DNA of 64,000 nucleotides from Bacteroidetes bacterium MedPE-SWsnd-G1 (GTDB lineage Bacteria > Bacteroidota > Bacteroidia > Flavobacteriales > Flavobacteriaceae), in assembly GCA_001874265.1 (NCBI GenBank), contig MPDD01000007.1, positions 1-64,000 on the forward strand, given 5' to 3'. Shown in pieces: positions 48 through 54,948 of the stretch. Position 1 is the stretch's first letter. Each line of letters opens with the position of its first letter. A program made the translations under genes and the position numbers. The notes beneath the pieces are model-generated. The model worked only from the letters and a program-made list of their open reading frames with translations. It ran no database searches and had not been told where the DNA came from.

Positions 48-509
48 CTATTTCAATTCTCCAGGACGTGCCGAATACGTAACTTTTAATGCATTGATTT
101 CTCTTAACTCCTTTTTAATGTCATTAATAGTACCAACACTACAGTTCTCATCTGCTTTTATCATGGTTGTCATATAATCACGCTCGTCTTCGTTAATTCC
201 TTCACGAGCAGCAAAAATAAAACTTCTTACTTCCTTTACATCCGATATCTTATCGTTCAATTGAATCTTATCTCCTTCTCCGTAGGCATCTTTATCTTGA
301 GCTTCACCTACATAGATATAACTAATCAATCGTTTGTCTTGTAATTTTTTAATTTCCGTTGCATTTGGAATTTGCTGTGCTACCATAACAGTAGTTTCAC
401 GCATTGTTGTTGCAACCATAAAAAAGAACAATAACATAAATACAATATCAGGTAACGACGCCGTATTAATTGGCGGCAATCCTTTTTTCTTTTTGCTAAA
501 TTTAGACAT
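48..509 (-). CDS. exbD: ExbD/TolR-family biopolymer transport protein
   Basis: Short protein with one N-terminal TM segment (PDIVFMLLFFFMVATTM) typical of ExbD; adjacent to second ExbD and MotA/TolQ/ExbB gene. Confidence 0.88.
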   Translation of the reverse strand: MSKFSKKKKGLPPINTASLPDIVFMLLFFFMVATTMRETTVMVAQQIPNATEIKKLQDKRLISYIYVGEAQDKDAYGEGDKIQLNDKISDVKEVRSFIFAAREGINEDERDYMTTMIKADENCSVGTINDIKKELREINALKVTYSARPGELK

Positions 510-524
510 GTATTCTTTTTTTAA

Positions 525-1154
525 TTAATTGTTTTCTGATTCAGAAATAATCTCAGGGTACATTGCACGAATTCTTTTAATCTTCGATTTAATAGACTCA
601 TTAGCTTTATCCTTTTCCAAGGCAATTACTAAATCTGAATATGAAATTCCATATTCCTCTTGAGATAATCTATTTCTTAAAGTTGTATACGCTGCTCCTA
701 ACTCATTCTGAACTTTAATAAACATACCGTACGACGTACTCCTGTCTGTTTTTAAAGAAATTACAGCTTTATTAGGATGATCTGATGATTCCGGGTCTTT
801 TGCCCCTTGACACCAATCACATTCCTTTCCAACTTCTTCTCCAAAAGGAATTATTGCATTACCTATTCCTCCTCCGTTATCAATAAAATCCATTGCCATT
901 TGGCGAACATCTTTTACTTCTTTGTAATCGCCTTCTATTAAAAGGTCATCATTCTTATTAAGAATAACTTCGAATACGTTCTTTTCTTTAATAACTGGCG
1001 GTGGTGGCGCATCTATTGGTTGCTTCTCCGGCAACCTACGCGAAATTCCTGCATCAACATCCATCGTTGTCGTTACTAAGAAAAATATCAATAGTAAGAA
1101 CGCGATGTCGGCCATAGAACCTGCGTTAATTTCTGGTGTGTCTCTTCTTGCCAT
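525..1154 (-). CDS. exbD: ExbD/TolR-family biopolymer transport protein
   Basis: N-terminal INAGSMADIAFLLLIFFLVTTTMD signature of ExbD. Confidence 0.9.
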   Translation of the reverse strand: MARRDTPEINAGSMADIAFLLLIFFLVTTTMDVDAGISRRLPEKQPIDAPPPPVIKEKNVFEVILNKNDDLLIEGDYKEVKDVRQMAMDFIDNGGGIGNAIIPFGEEVGKECDWCQGAKDPESSDHPNKAVISLKTDRSTSYGMFIKVQNELGAAYTTLRNRLSQEEYGISYSDLVIALEKDKANESIKSKIKRIRAMYPEIISESENN

Positions 1155-1162
1155 GTCCTAAA

Positions 1163-1627
1163 TTAATTTTTAGCAAACATATCCTTTACAGACCCCCATA
1201 ATACTGAAGCCAAACCAATCGCTCCTAAAAAGTAGGAGAAAATGATAAGTGCACCTGCATTTTTAGAAATTGATCCCTTTTCACCAAATTCGATTACTTG
1301 TCCAAATTTGTTAGTTACTTCTCCATCACTAGATACAGAATATGCAATGATAAAAAACACCGCTAATAGTCCAACACTTAAAAGTGCCTTTTTTAATGCC
1401 GCACCGTTTTTCAACAGACCCAACAATGAGAATCCTACGGCTAAAACAGTCGTTACTACAAGCATTACTATAGTAAAGGAAACAAATGGATCTACAACAC
1501 TAGTTTGCAATTCAGCATCAGTCTCAACAGCCTCACCACCCATAATAACTCTTACTAAAAGAATTATACCAATAATACCTAAAGCTGCGGCACCATATTT
1601 TGCTATTGTATAAAATTTATTTGTCAT
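1163..1627 (-). CDS. Small multi-pass membrane protein in the ExbB/ExbD operon
   Basis: Several hydrophobic segments; sandwiched in same-strand operon. Confidence 0.7.
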   Translation of the reverse strand: MTNKFYTIAKYGAAALGIIGIILLVRVIMGGEAVETDAELQTSVVDPFVSFTIVMLVVTTVLAVGFSLLGLLKNGAALKKALLSVGLLAVFFIIAYSVSSDGEVTNKFGQVIEFGEKGSISKNAGALIIFSYFLGAIGLASVLWGSVKDMFAKN

Positions 1628-1633
1628 AATGTC

Positions 1634-2371
1634 TTATTTTTTGTGAGCAACCAAAAGGTCTACTAATGAGATAGAAGCATCTTCCATATTATTTACAATA
1701 CTATCAACTTTTGCGATGATATAGTTGTAAAAAATTTGAAGTATAATTGCTACTACAAGACCAAATACTGTTGTTAATAATGCTACCTGAATACCACCTG
1801 CAACCGTTGCTGGAGACATTTCGTTAGATGCAGCAATATTATCAAATGCTTTAATCATACCAATTACAGTTCCCATGAACCCTAACATTGGTGCCAATGC
1901 AATAAATAATGTTAACCATGAGATGTTTTTCTCTAATAATCCCATTTGAACTCCACCGTAACCAACGATAGCTTTTTCTGCTGCTTCAACTCCGTCGTCA
2001 GAACGATCTAAACCTTGATAAAAAATAGCTGCAACAGGTCCTTTTGTATTTCTACAAACTTCTTTAGCTGCTTCAACACCTCCAGATGCTAATGCTTCCT
2101 CAACCGAACCAATTAACTTCTTAGTGTTTGTAGTTGCTAAATTCAAATATATGATTCTTTCAATAGCAATTGCAAGACCTAATATCAAAGCAATTAATAC
2201 AATCCCCATAAAGAAAGGACCTCCTTGAATGAATCGTTGTTTTAGTTCTTGATGAAAACCTTTTTCGCCGTCAACTTGTTCTGTCTGTGTGTCATCCTGT
2301 GCATACGTTGTTTGCGTCGTTCCTAAAAACAATAATCCTGTAATTGCTAGGATAGTAAATAATTTTTTCAT
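1634..2371 (-). CDS. exbB: MotA/TolQ/ExbB proton channel family protein
   Basis: Conserved APMLGFMGTVIGMI and GGIQVALLTTVFGLVVAI segments; N-terminal signal-like extension. Confidence 0.92.
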   Translation of the reverse strand: MKKLFTILAITGLLFLGTTQTTYAQDDTQTEQVDGEKGFHQELKQRFIQGGPFFMGIVLIALILGLAIAIERIIYLNLATTNTKKLIGSVEEALASGGVEAAKEVCRNTKGPVAAIFYQGLDRSDDGVEAAEKAIVGYGGVQMGLLEKNISWLTLFIALAPMLGFMGTVIGMIKAFDNIAASNEMSPATVAGGIQVALLTTVFGLVVAIILQIFYNYIIAKVDSIVNNMEDASISLVDLLVAHKK

Positions 2372-2452
2372 TGTGTAATAATTAATTGTTATTTTATTAA
2401 ATTAGATTATGGGTTAAAGATATAACATTTTTGCAAAAAAACAATTTAGCGC

Positions 2453-2538
2453 GGAGAGAAAGGGATTCGAACCCCCGATACAGTTTCCCGTAAACACGCT
2501 TTCCAGGCGCGCGCCTTAAACCACTCAGCCATCTCTCC
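2453..2538 (-). tRNA. tRNA-Ser(GGA)
   Basis: Cloverleaf with long variable arm; 7-bp acceptor GGAGAGA...TCTCTCC; T-loop GGTTCGAACCC-like; anticodon GGA in CTGGAAAG context on minus strand. Confidence 0.93.
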
Positions 2539-2725
2539 TAAATTGCAAAATTTTGCGATTGCCAAGTAACAAAAAAATGTTGGTTCGTGAAAGTTTTATT
2601 TTTAAATAAACAATAATTAAAACTTCACTAAGACTTTAATAAAAATCAATCTTTTTATTGTCAATTGTTTAACGATTTTCTTAAATCTCAATTATTCTTC
2701 TAAGCAATTTCAAAACTGCGATCTT

Positions 2726-3757
2726 TTAACGCATCATTTCACCTCTTAATGGTGTTTCAAAAACCTCTTTAAATTGAGTATTCGGAATTTTTTCACCTAA
2801 CAGATACATTAATTTAGCCAAAGCACTTTCAGTTGTTAAGTCTTTACCGCTTATCAAGCCTATTTTTTTTAACTGAACACTTGTTTCATATAAACCAAGT
2901 ACAACACTTCCACTTGTGCACTGCGTAGTATTAACAATTTTAATGCCACGTTTTATGGCATCTCTTAGAGCATTCACAAACCATTTATCTGTAGGTGCAT
3001 TTCCTGATCCAAAGGTTTCCAATACTACACCTTTTAAACCATCAATTTCTAATACGCTACGCACCACCTTTTCAGTAATTCCTGGAAATAGTTTCAACAA
3101 AACAATATTCTCTTCTAATCGCTTTCTAATTTTAATTTTTTTAAACCTTCTATTTTGTAATAATAGGTTCTCACTAAATTTAAGATGAACCCCACTTTCA
3201 CCCAATGCTGGATAATTCGGAGAAGCGTATGCCTCAAAATTTTCCGCACTGACTTTTGTAGTTCTATTTGCTCTGTACAATTTATATTCGAAATACAAGC
3301 AAACTTCTGAAATTATAGGCCTTCCTTTTTTCTGAGCAGCCGCGATTTCCAAAGAAGTTATAAGGTTTTCTTTTGCATCTGTTCTTAAATCTCCAATTGG
3401 TAATTGTGAACCTGTAAAAATTACTGGCTTTGATAAGTTTTCGAACATAAAACTAATTGCAGATGCTGAGTATGACATTGTATCCGAACCATGCAACACC
3501 ACAAACCCATCAAAATTGGAGTAATTATCTTCAATTACTTCGGTAATTGTAATCCAATGTTTAGGATTCATATTTGAAGAATCTATTGGCTCTTTAAATG
3601 TATAACTTTCGATTTCACAATTTAAATGTTTCAATTCTGGAATATGTGTAAGTAATTTATCAAAATTAAATGCTTTCAAGGCTCCAGTTTCAAAATCCTT
3701 TGTCATACCTATAGTACCTCCAGTATAAATGAGTAGAATCTTGGGTTGTTTTGCCAT
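2726..3757 (-). CDS. ansA: Type I L-asparaginase
   Basis: ILLIYTGGTIGM N-terminus and VVLHGSDTMSYSASAISFM motif. Confidence 0.93.
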   Translation of the reverse strand: MAKQPKILLIYTGGTIGMTKDFETGALKAFNFDKLLTHIPELKHLNCEIESYTFKEPIDSSNMNPKHWITITEVIEDNYSNFDGFVVLHGSDTMSYSASAISFMFENLSKPVIFTGSQLPIGDLRTDAKENLITSLEIAAAQKKGRPIISEVCLYFEYKLYRANRTTKVSAENFEAYASPNYPALGESGVHLKFSENLLLQNRRFKKIKIRKRLEENIVLLKLFPGITEKVVRSVLEIDGLKGVVLETFGSGNAPTDKWFVNALRDAIKRGIKIVNTTQCTSGSVVLGLYETSVQLKKIGLISGKDLTTESALAKLMYLLGEKIPNTQFKEVFETPLRGEMMR

Positions 3758-36331: not shown

Positions 36332-36745
36332 TTATTCTGAAATTAAATCGGCCAAAGAAGTATGGCGAAAAATTTGAAGTGTACTATCTCTAACCTGAAT
36401 CATCAACTTGTTAACGCTACATGCATTTTCGTCTGGGCAATCGTCACATTTTTCATAGAAATTTAAACTAACACAAGGCAACATAGCAATTGGTCCTTCT
36501 AACACGCGAATAACATCAGTCATTGGAACATCAGCCGCATCTCTAATTAAATAGTAGCCTCCACCTTTTCCTTTTTTAGAACCAAGAATTCCGGCTTTAC
36601 GCAATGTCAATAAAATACTCTCCAAAAACTTTTGAGATATGTTTTCACTCCTAGAAATTTCAGCAATTTGTACCGGACCTTTTACATCTCGGCGCGCTAA
36701 AAATGTAAGTGCCTTTAGTCCGTATTTCGTTTTCTTTGAAAGCAT
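36332..36745 (-). CDS. Rrf2 family transcriptional regulator
   Basis: MLSKKTKYGLKALTFLARRD, SKKGKGGGYYL, Cys-rich C-VSLNFYEK-C-DD-C-PDENA-C region. Confidence 0.94.
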   Translation of the reverse strand: MLSKKTKYGLKALTFLARRDVKGPVQIAEISRSENISQKFLESILLTLRKAGILGSKKGKGGGYYLIRDAADVPMTDVIRVLEGPIAMLPCVSLNFYEKCDDCPDENACSVNKLMIQVRDSTLQIFRHTSLADLISE

Positions 36746-38991: not shown

Positions 38992-39059
38992 CGTACTTAA
39001 CTTTTAATTTAATACGATTGAAAATGAAATAAGGAAAGTGAATTGTTTTGAAATTCATC

Positions 39060-39154
39060 TGTTATCTATCCAATTTGGTAGAATTTAGCACCTTCTTTAA
39101 AAGTAAAGGGTTGCTAAGGCTTCATCGGGTCTAATCCCTCTGCCTTTCTTTATA
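39060..39154 (-). ncRNA. SAM-I (S-box) riboswitch upstream of metX
   Basis: RNA: GTTATAAAGAAAGGCAGAGGGATTAGACCCGATGAAGCCTTAGCAACCCTTTACTTTTAAAGAAGGTGCTAAATTCTACCAAATTGGATAGATAAC; conserved AGAGGGA, GAYCC, GCAACC, AAGGTGCTAAWTTC and closing P1 GTTAT/ATAAC. Confidence 0.93.
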
Positions 39155-39310
39155 ACACAATCAATAAGTATCTGAACTTGACCGCAAAGTAATGCATAAA
39201 AAAAATAGCACGCAATGAATTTGAAATTTTTCTTTAAATTTCAAATAAGAATTGAGAATAAGCAACATTGGCCACCTATTCTCAATCTGAAAATTTAACA
39301 ATTCTTATTT

Positions 39311-40579
39311 TTAAGCCAATGCTTGTTCAATATCTGCAATAAGATCAGAAATAGCCTCTAACCCCACTGACAAACGAATCAAGTCTTTGGTTACACCACT
39401 TGCTTCTTGCTGCTCATCATTTAATTGTTGATGTGTAGTGCTTACTGGATGAATAATCAATGATTTGGTATCGCCAATATTGGCCAACAAAGAGAATATT
39501 TTTGTTTTATCAGTAAACGTTTTGGCCGCATCAAAACCACCTTTAAGACCAAAAGTTACAATTCCACTTTGTCCTTTAGGTAAATATTTTTTTGCTAAAT
39601 TGCTGTATTTACTACTTTCTAAACCAGGATAATTTACCCAGGCAACATTGTCATTTGTCTCTAACCATTTTGCCAATGCTAATGCATTTTCGCTATGTTT
39701 TGCAACTCTAATTGGTAAGGTTTCTAATCCTTGAATAATTTGAAATGCGTTATACGGACTTAAGGCTCCGCCATAATCACGCAAACCTTCAATTCTAACT
39801 TTGGCTATATAAGCAATAGCACCCAAAGCTTCGGCATAATTTAATCCATGATAACTTGGGTTCGGCTCCGTAAATTCAGGGAAATTACCATTGGCCCAAT
39901 CAAAAGTACCAGCGTCTATTATTACACCTCCTAATGAATTTCCTTGACCGCCAATATATTTTGTCAACGAATGAATTACAATATTGGCTCCATGCTCTAT
40001 TGGATTTAATAAATAAGGAGTTGCAACCGTATTGTCTACAATAAACGGGATTTTCGCCGCTTTCGCTTCCACCGAAATCGCCTTTAAATCCAATACATCT
40101 AGTTTCGGATTTCCTAAACTCTCTACAAAAATGGCTTTGGTGTTTTTTTGAACCGCCTTCCCAAAATTCGCTGCATCTGATGCATCTACAAACGTAGTTG
40201 TAATTCCCAATCTAGGCAAGGTGTTATTTAAAAGGTTGTAGGTTCCTCCATATAGCGAACTTGAAGCAACAACATGATCTCCACTTTTCAACAAAGTTAA
40301 TAATCCGGTTGAAATCGCAGCAGTTCCAGAAGCAAAAACCGCGGCAGCAACACCGCCTTCTATGGCCGCCAAACGCTGTTCTAAAATATCATTTGTAGGG
40401 TTATTTAATCTAGTATAAATAAATCCAGGCTCTGCAAGGGAAAATAAATTTGCAGCATGATCTGTATCATTAAAAACATATGAAGTTGATTGATAAATTG
40501 GCACAGCACGTGTTCCTGCTGTAGTTGTTGTATCGTGTCCCGCGTGTAATGCTTGTGTTGAAATTTTTTGAGTACTCAT
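39311..40579 (-). CDS. metY: O-acetylhomoserine aminocarboxypropyltransferase/sulfhydrylase
   Basis: TQALHAGHDTTTTAGTRAVPIYQSTSYVF, LNNPTNDILEQRLAAIEGG, VDNTVATPYL, IVIHSLTKYIGGQG. Confidence 0.94.
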   Translation of the reverse strand: MSTQKISTQALHAGHDTTTTAGTRAVPIYQSTSYVFNDTDHAANLFSLAEPGFIYTRLNNPTNDILEQRLAAIEGGVAAAVFASGTAAISTGLLTLLKSGDHVVASSSLYGGTYNLLNNTLPRLGITTTFVDASDAANFGKAVQKNTKAIFVESLGNPKLDVLDLKAISVEAKAAKIPFIVDNTVATPYLLNPIEHGANIVIHSLTKYIGGQGNSLGGVIIDAGTFDWANGNFPEFTEPNPSYHGLNYAEALGAIAYIAKVRIEGLRDYGGALSPYNAFQIIQGLETLPIRVAKHSENALALAKWLETNDNVAWVNYPGLESSKYSNLAKKYLPKGQSGIVTFGLKGGFDAAKTFTDKTKIFSLLANIGDTKSLIIHPVSTTHQQLNDEQQEASGVTKDLIRLSVGLEAISDLIADIEQALA

Positions 40580-40716
40580 TTTATATTTATTTTATTTTTT
40601 TGACTTGTTTTTTGTTGAGCCATCATTTCGGTAGTACCACTGGGCTCTTTTTCAATTGTGGCAATACCCAAGCATTATCATACAGTTTATCGTTTTCATC
40701 GTTTTTAATTTGATTC

Positions 40717-40785
40717 AAAAAAAAGCCTCTGAAAAATCAGAGGCTTGTTATTCTATTGTTAAATCTTAACCAAAATAAGCCTCTG
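40717..40785 (-). promoter_or_regulatory. Attenuator: overlapping antiterminator/terminator with 3 arms
   Basis: Arm A CAGAGGCTT (40777-40785), arm B AAGCCTCTG (40738-40746), arm C CAGAGGCTT + U8 (40717-40731), reading on minus strand. Confidence 0.8.
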
Positions 40786-40834
40786 CATAATATTTACACA
40801 TCATAAAGCGCATTTTGTTAGATATTTTATTCAT
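40766..40834 (-). CDS. Putative methionine leader peptide MNKISNKMRFMMCKYYAEAYFG
   Basis: 22-codon ORF preceding terminator; tandem ATG ATG at codons 11-12; codons 17-20 contain antiterminator arm A; -7 box TATATTTG at 40855-40862 upstream. Confidence 0.75.
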   Translation of the reverse strand: MNKISNKMRFMMCKYYAEAYFG

Positions 40835-40854
40835 TACCCTAGTTAATTAGTAGG

Positions 40855-40862
40855 CAAATATA
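40855..40862 (-). promoter_or_regulatory. Bacteroidota-type -7 box for leader/metY transcript
   Basis: TATATTTG matches TAnnTTTG; TTTG further upstream at about 40884-40887 as -33 candidate. Confidence 0.55.
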
Positions 40863-40994
40863 AAAGAATAATAATTAGCTGACCAAATAAATTTTGAAGA
40901 AAATTTTATTTTTAACTCAGTATAACCGAAACTAATCTAGAAATGACAAATAAAATATTTCAACTATTTCTATAGATATTGATTTTAATTGTTA

Positions 40995-41002: not shown

Positions 41003-41012
41003 CACCCGAATC

Positions 41013-41065
41013 TCAGAGGAAAAATTTGAACTGATTGCAACCTCTTCAAAAAATGCTAAAGCAGT
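41013..41065 (+). ncRNA. SAM-II/SAM-V-like pseudoknot riboswitch candidate upstream of metK
   Basis: AGAGG-AAAAATTTGAACTGATTGCAA-CCTCT-TCAAAAAATGCTAAAGCAGT: P1 stem AGAGG/CCTCT, loop ATTTGAACTGATTGCAA, tail AAAAATGCTAAAG, pseudoknot ACTG/CAGT. Confidence 0.72.
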
Positions 41066-41132
41066 AAGTGTATACTTCCCTTTGGCTTTTACTTTTTTTT
41101 CTGGATTCTCTAAAACATTAAAAGTTAAGACT

Positions 41133-42386
41133 ATGTCATATTTATTTACATCAGAATCTGTGTCGGAAGGGCACCCTGATAAAATTGCAGATCAAATTTC
41201 AGATGCATTAATCGATCGTTTTTTAGCCTTCGACAAAAGTTCTAAAGTTGCTTGTGAAACCTTAGTTACAACGGGGCAAGTTATTTTGGCAGGAGAGGTA
41301 AAATCTACTGCTTATTTAGATGTTCAAAAAATAGCGAGAGATGTAATTAACAAGATTGGTTACACCAAAGGAGAATATATGTTCGACGGAAATTCATGTG
41401 GTGTTTTAAACGCTATTCACGAACAATCTCAAGATATTAATCAAGGTGTTGACAGAGGCAACTATGATGAGCAAGGTGCTGGTGACCAAGGAATGATGTT
41501 TGGTTATGCTACTAAAGAAACAGAAAATTTTATGCCTTTGGCATTGGATTTAAGTCATCGTTTACTAAAGGAACTTGCTGTAGTAAGAAGAGAAAATTCT
41601 GAAATTACTTACTTAAGACCAGATGCAAAAAGTCAAGTAACTATTGAGTATTCTGATGACAATGTACCACAACGAATTGATACGATTGTAATTTCGACAC
41701 AACACGACCAATTTGATGAAGATGAACCAATGTTGGCTAAAATCAAGGAGGATTTAGTTGGCATATTAATTCCAAGAGTAATTGCGCAACTACCATCAAA
41801 TCTTCAAGCATTATTTAATGATGATATTACGTACCACATTAACCCAACAGGAAAATTTGTAATTGGTGGACCGCATGGAGATACTGGATTAACAGGAAGG
41901 AAAATTATTGTGGATACGTATGGAGGAAAAGGAGCACACGGTGGTGGTGCTTTTTCTGGAAAAGATCCAAGTAAAGTAGATAGATCAGCGGCATATGCTT
42001 CAAGACATATTGCAAAAAATTTAGTTGCTGCCGGAGTTGCTGATGAAATTTTAGTTCAAGTTTCTTACGCTATTGGTGTAGCACAACCAACATCTATAAA
42101 TGTTGAAACTTATGGAACTGCTAAGATTGATTTAACCGATGGTGAAATTTCTAAAGTGGTAGAACAATTATTTGATATGCGACCAGCGGCTATTGAAAAG
42201 CGTTTGAAATTACGCAACCCTATTTATCTAGAAACTGCGGCTTATGGTCATATGGGTAGAACTCCAGAAGTAAAAACCTTAGAGTTCACATCTACAGAAG
42301 GAAAAACCGTTGCCTTAGAGGTAGAGACTTTTACATGGGAAAAACTAGACTATTTAGAAAAAGTAAAAGACGCTTTTAATATCTAA
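41133..42386 (+). CDS. metK: S-adenosylmethionine synthetase (true start 41133)
   Basis: [51 protein letters not shown]. Confidence 0.97.
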
Positions 42387-54310: not shown

Positions 54311-54362
54311 ATTATAGTTTTAATTAATTAAGTGGAGCAAATGTAGTAAAATAAGGGTGAAT

Positions 54363-54400
54363 AAAAAACCTCCTAAAAGTCAAACTTTTAGGAGGTTTTA
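54363..54400 (-). terminator. Terminator after inorganic pyrophosphatase gene
   Basis: AAAACCTCCTAAAAGtcaaaCTTTTAGGAGGTTTT. Confidence 0.8.
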
Positions 54401-54420
54401 ATATACTTAATTCACACTAA

Positions 54421-54948
54421 TTAAATGGTGAAATTTCCACTCGTTTTGTGCTCACTATTCTCATATCTTTCGATGCATTTTTCAAGGATTTCATAAGCTT
54501 CTTCAGCATTACCCCAATCTCCAACATCAACTTTTTTCTTCTCTAAATCTTTATATACCTGAAAGAAATGCTCAATTTCTTGAAGTCTATGTGGATTCAA
54601 TTCAGAAATATCCCCCTTCTTACTCCAAATTGGGTCCGATACGGGAACGCAAACTATTTTTTCGTCTGGTCCTTTCTCATCAGCCATGTGGAAAACACCA
54701 ACTGCTTTCACCTCCATTACGCACATCGGAAATGTTGGCTCGTGCATTAAAACCAAAACATCTAATGGGTCTCCATCTAAAGCCAAAGTTTCTGGAACGA
54801 ATCCGTAATCTCCAGGATACATCATTGAAGAAAATAACATTCGGTCAAAACGAATTTTATTCAATTCAAAATCATACTCATACTTATTTCTACTTCCTTT
54901 TGGAATTTCTATTAAGACATCAAAAGTCTTGGTTTTGCTAATTGTCAT
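54421..54948 (-). CDS. ppa: Inorganic diphosphatase (soluble, family I)
   Basis: IEIPKGSRNKYEYD, MYPGDYGFVPETLALDGDPLDVLVL. Confidence 0.96.
   Translation of the reverse strand: MTISKTKTFDVLIEIPKGSRNKYEYDFELNKIRFDRMLFSSMMYPGDYGFVPETLALDGDPLDVLVLMHEPTFPMCVMEVKAVGVFHMADEKGPDEKIVCVPVSDPIWSKKGDISELNPHRLQEIEHFFQVYKDLEKKKVDVGDWGNAEEAYEILEKCIERYENSEHKTSGNFTI

Follow-up and report, generated by a model that had tools for sequence, protein, structure and literature searches.

A candidate methionine-codon attenuator of the trp type upstream of metY in Flavobacteriaceae

The metY gene of Bacteroidetes bacterium MedPE-SWsnd-G1 is very probably controlled by a trp-type ribosome-mediated attenuator, through which its expression would depend on the supply of Met-tRNA and possibly also of Cys-tRNA, as codon 13 of the leader is a Cys codon. 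The element is located at 40715-40862 on the minus strand of the window, the 64,000-nucleotide stretch of DNA that was analysed, between metY (39311-40579, minus strand) and the divergent metK (41136-42386, plus strand). The metY product scores 632.7 bits (cut-off 495.1) with TIGR01326, O-acetylhomoserine aminocarboxypropyltransferase, in agreement with the O-acetylhomoserine sulfhydrylase gene named in the first-pass annotation of this DNA. The same annotation had proposed a trp-style layout with Met or Met/Cys specificity. This layout is supported by the comparative data, whereas a 1:2 hairpin, a second attenuator in tandem and an alternation with the SAM-I riboswitch were absent from that proposal. 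The features of a trp-type attenuator are found together here: a leader rich in codons of the pathway amino acid, mutually exclusive pairings of segments 2:3 and 3:4, a 1:2 protector hairpin, and an appropriate spacing of the control codons. The elements themselves, their conservation, their covariation and their gene context are directly observed.

The -7 box TATATTTG (TAnnTTTG; 40855-40862, minus strand) is the sole TAnnTTTG on the minus strand between metK and metY. A promoter downstream of the terminator had been named beforehand as an argument against attenuation, and no TAnnTTTG is present on the minus strand of the window between the terminator and metY. Across elements the box is strongly enriched: 38 of 57 carry an exact TAnnTTTG no more than 45 nt 5' of the leader ATG, compared to 3.0% of background windows, and it mostly sits 18-22 nt before the ATG. 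A TTTG at 40884-40887 (minus strand), 21 nt 5' of the box, possibly represents the -33 element, which we take to follow the consensus of Bacteroidetes promoters. Transcription of the metY leader is predicted to start near 40850, which would leave a 5' UTR of about 16 nt, because PMC9723704 places the TAnnTTTG box of flavobacteria at -12 to -5 and we applied this position to TATATTTG.

The box is followed by a leader ORF of 22 residues, MNKISNKMRFMMCKYYAEAYFG (40766-40834, minus strand), whose length and Met positions are conserved in relatives. Met occupies codons 1, 8, 11 and 12 and Cys codon 13, and the tandem Met codons 11-12 (ATGATG; 40799-40804), which are conserved as an MM pair across leaders, are the putative control codons. 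Four RNA segments can be traced on the same strand. Segment 1 (TGTGTAA, 40794-40800) starts within the last Met codon and pairs with TTATGCA at 40790-40784 in segment 2 (40777-40790). Segment 2 also contains arm A, CAGAGGCTT at 40785-40777, which corresponds to leader codons 17-20 and is complementary to segment 3, or arm B, AAGCCTCTG at 40746-40738. Segment 4 (40717-40731) consists of arm C, a second copy of CAGAGGCTT at 40731-40723, and a U tract at 40722-40717; the B:C stem has 10 bp closed by a TTTT loop. The box, the leader with its Met and Cys codons, the three identical or complementary 9-mers and the position of arm A inside the leader had all been described in the first-pass annotation and hold at these coordinates. 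Of the U8 that it placed after arm C, the U tract stands, but only six U lie beyond the arm, and a T run of eight is reached by counting the last two bases of the stem; the gap between ATGATG and arm A, from 40799 to 40785, is 13 nt and not the 12 nt given there. There are 25 terminator-like sites on the two strands of the window, and a copy of the 3' arm of at least 7 nt within 110 nt upstream was found at the metY site only (9 nt). Codon-shuffled leaders reached the A:B score of the window leader with p = 0.005.

Use of the promoter, translation of the leader, ribosome stalling, the kinetics and the sign of the response are inferred from the sequence analysis, as follows. RNA polymerase would start near 40850, and a ribosome would enter the 22-residue leader almost at once. 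When Met is ample, the ribosome would pass the Met codons, reach the stop codon and cover arm A, so that B pairs with C and transcription terminates near 40717, yielding an RNA of about 134 nt. When Met is scarce, the ribosome would wait at codons 11-12, covering segment 1 and leaving arm A free; A would then capture B ahead of the synthesis of C, which would prevent the terminator from forming and let transcription proceed into metY. A leader that no ribosome translates would have its arm A held in the 1:2 hairpin, so that termination would be the default. As Met is also the initiating residue of every protein, severe starvation could stop initiation at the leader and thereby restore termination. 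Starvation would thus act on the leader at two steps, initiation and elongation, a situation on which the conserved 1:2 hairpin, linking an untranslated leader to termination, would bear.

When GTDB genomes were searched with MetY, 80 metY loci were obtained. Analysis by cmscan revealed a SAM-I riboswitch directly upstream of metY in 56 of them, a SAM-II riboswitch in three and neither in 21, and it is at the riboswitch-free loci that Met-rich short ORFs occur. Examples are MKKVMYNMSMMMWKISAEDSIV in Saonia flava, MNQVMCNMCMMMWGKPAADAIA in Gillisia lutea, MKFLTNMCSMMMYRFISVGDTIV in Flavicella marina and MKNIKLNMVKMMMRNITQRICML in Lutimonas halocynthiae. A covariance model, R1, was built from 13 elements, the window element among them, and its seeds came from metY upstream regions that had been chosen because they contain a leader ORF and a terminator. 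R1 matches 15 of the 21 riboswitch-free metY loci against none of the 56 SAM-I loci (p = 1.5e-11), 12 of the 15 being members of the training set and three (L069, L013 and L075) lying outside it; the match upstream of metY at L069, a locus not in the model, reaches 97.6 bits.

At E <= 2e-5, R1 matches 46 of 400 Flavobacteriaceae genomes from 32 genera, with false matches among the weakest. At 60 bits or more there are 35 hits, and the first large ORF on their 3' side is metY in 30 cases, metX in two and metZ in one. One of the remaining hits precedes a TonB-dependent receptor gene and then metY, and the other runs into a contig end or a transposase; counting the receptor-metY case, 34 of the 35 precede metY, metX or metZ. 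A draw across the phylum (398 genomes, 173 genera) gave R1 hits in four genera, all of them Flavobacteriaceae, and a weaker form of the element may exist outside the family. Matches below about 50 bits proved to be mostly plain terminators by unrelated genes (L162-L170, joined by L158 and L160 with 51-53 bits), and a candidate at 54359-54485 of the window was rejected as an ordinary gene-end terminator. In genus g129, which is probably Flavobacterium, a second copy of the leader precedes an operon of serine acetyltransferase, cysK and sulfite reductase. Met/Cys leaders stand before such an operon at L187 (473-601, MMLFVCNMCCMMWKNPQSISIA) and L188 (481-609, MMLFVCNMCCMMWKNPQSITIA), and at both loci another Met leader is found before metY about 7-8 kb beyond.

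RNAalifold, unprompted, chose two helices, the 3:4 terminator and the 1:2 hairpin, the latter beginning at TG in the last Met codon and reaching the first bases of arm A. In these two helices 96.4% of the cells are paired and eight pairs show double-sided changes; 500 shuffles never gave pairing measures as high, and every slid version was far lower. For the antiterminator 2:3 the paired fraction is 85.7%, and two of its pairs have changed on both sides. The leader ORF, the Met run and the arm complementarity are all present at homologous loci, and the exclusive pairing of B with either A or C, already suggested by the window alone, is conserved there with compensatory changes. The arm triples vary jointly, as in GCAGAGG/CCTCTGC, GCAGCGG/CCGCTGC, GCAAGGGC/GCCCTTGC, CTGTAGGGG/CCTCTATAG and GCGAAGGC/GCCTTTGC. 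The complementarity of A to its own B exceeds that to B arms exchanged among elements (matched in 0 of 10,000 permutations, also when dereplicated to 31), and the same holds for 1:2 against exchanged partners (0 of 10,000, also when dereplicated to 37), with shared ancestry removed in part only by both permutations.

The arms of the 1:2 hairpin alternate between TGTGGAA/TTCCGCA, TGCGTA/TACGCA, TGTGTAAA/TTTACGCA and TACAGA/TCTGTA, and for this reason the frequent W next to the Met run, like the SA or TQ pair behind it, looks like an RNA signal rather than a peptide signal. The conserved peptide C-terminus MRFMMCKYYAEAYFG expected in the first-pass annotation is accordingly not seen: the tail varies as a peptide, and the SA/TQ/AE positions track the RNA hairpin. 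In the window itself the 1:2 hairpin is weak (-1.5 kcal/mol alone, with two of seven pairs G-U), and the 3:4 and 2:3 hairpins have energies of -16.5 and -15.8 kcal/mol, respectively. The fold of the whole naked leader (-31.8 kcal/mol) contains the terminator and leaves arm A sequestered. With a ribosome stalled at codon 12, the RNA ahead of it, synthesized as far as the end of B, folds as 2:3 at -16.9 kcal/mol. Once the RNA ahead of the stalled ribosome is completed, the terminator is preferred at equilibrium, so antitermination would have to be kinetic, as is likewise assumed for trp.

Analysis of the internal codons of 47 leaders revealed 191 ATG among 1025 (18.6%) in frame, compared to 4 (0.4%) and 2 (0.2%) in the other frames; the Met content of leaders found by the model is partly selected, because R1 includes the ATGATG columns. 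The leaders are mostly 22-23 residues long, 54 of 57 have their last Met at codon 12 or 13, and 51 of 57 have another Met directly before it. The other residues are variable and explained by the RNA arms. In 32 of 46 elements, 12-13 nt separate the last Met codon from arm A; the end of arm A usually lies 7-12 nt short of the leader stop codon. Taking the size of the ribosome footprint into account, the 12-13 nt spacing matches the leading edge of a ribosome whose A site is occupied by the last Met codon.

The Met leader and the SAM-I riboswitch were never found together upstream of metY among the 80 loci. Three congeners of the window genome, with MetY proteins 75-76% identical, carry SAM-I before metY, so the swap between the two regulators occurs within a genus. 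The exclusion is not absolute, since at L126 (G159) a Met leader and a SAM-I riboswitch stand in series before metX, a possible two-signal control. The SAM-I riboswitch (RF00162) resembles the Met leader in its position upstream of metY in other Flavobacteriaceae; however, it senses SAM directly, and its aptamer is absent at 40715-40862. No known riboswitch was matched by Rfam in this region, no SAM aptamer (SAM-I, SAM-II and others) was found, and no T-box was matched at the gathering score. Elsewhere in the window, Rfam identified a SAM-I riboswitch before metX (39059-39158, minus strand) and a SAM-II riboswitch before metK (41010-41069, plus strand); together with the Met leader of metY, the methionine cluster thus contains three different RNA regulators. 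A gene for an Rrf2-family regulator (36332-36745, minus strand) lies between metZ and cysH; its product matches CymR weakly (81 bits, cut-off 195), and it may add protein control to the cluster.

Many relatives possess a second ORF on the 3' side of the first terminator, mostly of 19-42 residues and even richer in Met and Cys, such as MKNLVIANIMMCMDMMAMCMCRMECYYLKRRI and MKKAMNNMMMRDMMMSMMMRHMNRYCQNRI. The in-frame content of these second leaders is 22.4% Met and 11.6% Cys (n = 25). The ORF ends with an arm A2 resembling GCTATTACC, which pairs with B2, GGTAATAGC, atop a second terminator formed by AAGTCCCTTTGG...CCAAAGGGACTTTTTT; A2 and B2 vary jointly, as in GGTATTACC/GGTAATACC, GATATTGCC/GGTAATATC and CGTATTACC/GGTAATACG. 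A model of this second element, R2, matches 21 of 400 genomes, in 20 of which an R1 hit lies just upstream; in the 21st the first leader, MIFKTKNTMYSKMCKPIYIKDTVV, is present and was missed by R1. Two serial gates, if at work, would give a steep response or a two-signal response to Met and Cys. The window contains a second small ORF, MKTINCMIMLGYCHN (40652-40699, minus strand), which is probably a remnant of the second attenuator seen in relatives. R2 scores it at 5 bits without filters, against 50-83 bits in relatives. In its surroundings (40616-40669, minus strand), GGGTATTGCCAC (40669-40658) can pair with GTGGTACTACC (40639-40629), and there is a weak GAGCC/GGCTC stem without a U tract; this region is degenerate relative to its counterpart in relatives. 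A working second attenuator in the window was rejected on the score and the missing U tract.

The specificity of the leader deserves separate consideration. It is conceivable, though we consider it unlikely, that the leader senses Cys, or the sulfur amino acids jointly, instead of Met alone, as arm A would remain just accessible if the ribosome stalled at the Cys codon that follows the last Met. Cys takes this position in 15 of 57 leaders, including that of the window, and both the Cys content of the second leaders and the occurrence of the same leader before the cysteine-related operon of g129 point in this direction. On the other hand, W (22 leaders) and R (8) occur at this position along with C (15) as the 1:2 hairpin requires, while the MM pair is kept; moreover, Cys accounts for 6.0% of the codons in the 47 first leaders, compared to 18.6% for Met, and some leaders have no Cys at all.

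The preferred reading, attenuation governed by Met-tRNA, was also weighed against three mechanisms of another kind. We consider it very unlikely that, on top of regulation in cis, the short RNA of about 134 nt left by termination or the peptide encoded in it works in trans: rnTrpL and peTrpL of Sinorhizobium, which reportedly act in trans, offer a precedent, but the tails of the leader peptides are not conserved. Arrest of the nascent peptide by a metabolite such as SAM, comparable to TnaC or plant CGS1, would replace slow decoding and is consistent with the conserved Met positions and peptide length; it is nevertheless highly improbable, as the variable non-Met residues are accounted for by the RNA arms, and arrest by excess Met or SAM would turn a biosynthetic gene on when it is unneeded. 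That an ordinary fixed terminator stands beside a chance ORF, with metY served by its own promoter, is barely credible, for although short ORFs are common in AT-rich DNA and terminator-like sites are numerous in the window, no upstream gene on the same strand ends at this terminator (metK being divergent), the -7 motif is missing between terminator and metY, and the frame-specific Met enrichment, triple covariation and gene specificity all argue against it.

Methionine genes are classic targets of SAM riboswitches, T-boxes or repressors. The metY element resembles the trp-, his-, thr-, leu- and phe-type attenuators of Proteobacteria and the trp and leu attenuators of Actinobacteria (PMC1262725) in having a run of product codons in the leader peptide, four segments with exclusive 1:2, 2:3 and 3:4 pairings, and an intrinsic terminator before the first gene. 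It differs from them in its Met codons, its sulfur amino-acid genes, its occurrence in Flavobacteriaceae, its very short predicted 5' UTR, and the second attenuator in tandem in many relatives. In Actinobacteria, no conserved RNA regulatory structure was found upstream of methionine operons (PMC1262725). The cys operon of Mycobacterium and Propionibacterium is preceded by leaders with runs of Cys; these share with the metY element the short ORF, the sulfur amino-acid codons and the sulfur genes, but they lack conserved terminator hairpins (PMC1262725), whereas both terminator and antiterminator are conserved in the metY element. Closer in phylogeny, the main text of PMC9723704 describes clues for leader-peptide attenuation before amino-acid operons of Flavobacterium psychrophilum, where pheA and hisG are among the genes preceded by conserved 5' elements; these belong to the same bacterial family and the same general mechanism is proposed, yet methionine is unmentioned in that main text.

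The comparative surveys consulted (PMC1262725, PMC2965389) describe attenuators with leader peptides for other amino acids, but Met is not among them. In the openly accessible literature that we searched we found no Met leader-peptide attenuator; on balance we lean towards an apparently undescribed class of Met-specific ribosome-mediated attenuators, often two in series with a terminator each, that replaces the SAM riboswitch before metY in Flavobacteriaceae. If this is true, the cell would sense the amino acid via its tRNA and not the derivative SAM. The family would then provide a natural experiment, in which metY is placed under SAM sensing or, as it seems, Met-tRNA sensing, sometimes within one genus.

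At L173 (G035:C2:27400-34000), tandem Met-rich leaders near 137 and 282 precede a small ORF and a Peripla_BP_2/FecCD importer; no sulfur gene was recognized downstream by sequence, and the importer is perhaps of the B12 type and under Met control. The TonB-dependent receptor gene mentioned above (L172, ORF 446-3292) follows a Met leader at 257-383 and is itself followed by metY, which makes the receptor a candidate outer-membrane importer of a sulfur or methionine-related nutrient. Finally, the leader before metY in Flavobacterium luteum (L075, 1657-1779), MNSNICYTSKAIQEIS, scores 54.6 bits with R1 and has no Met run; it may respond to a different control amino acid or represent a decaying element.
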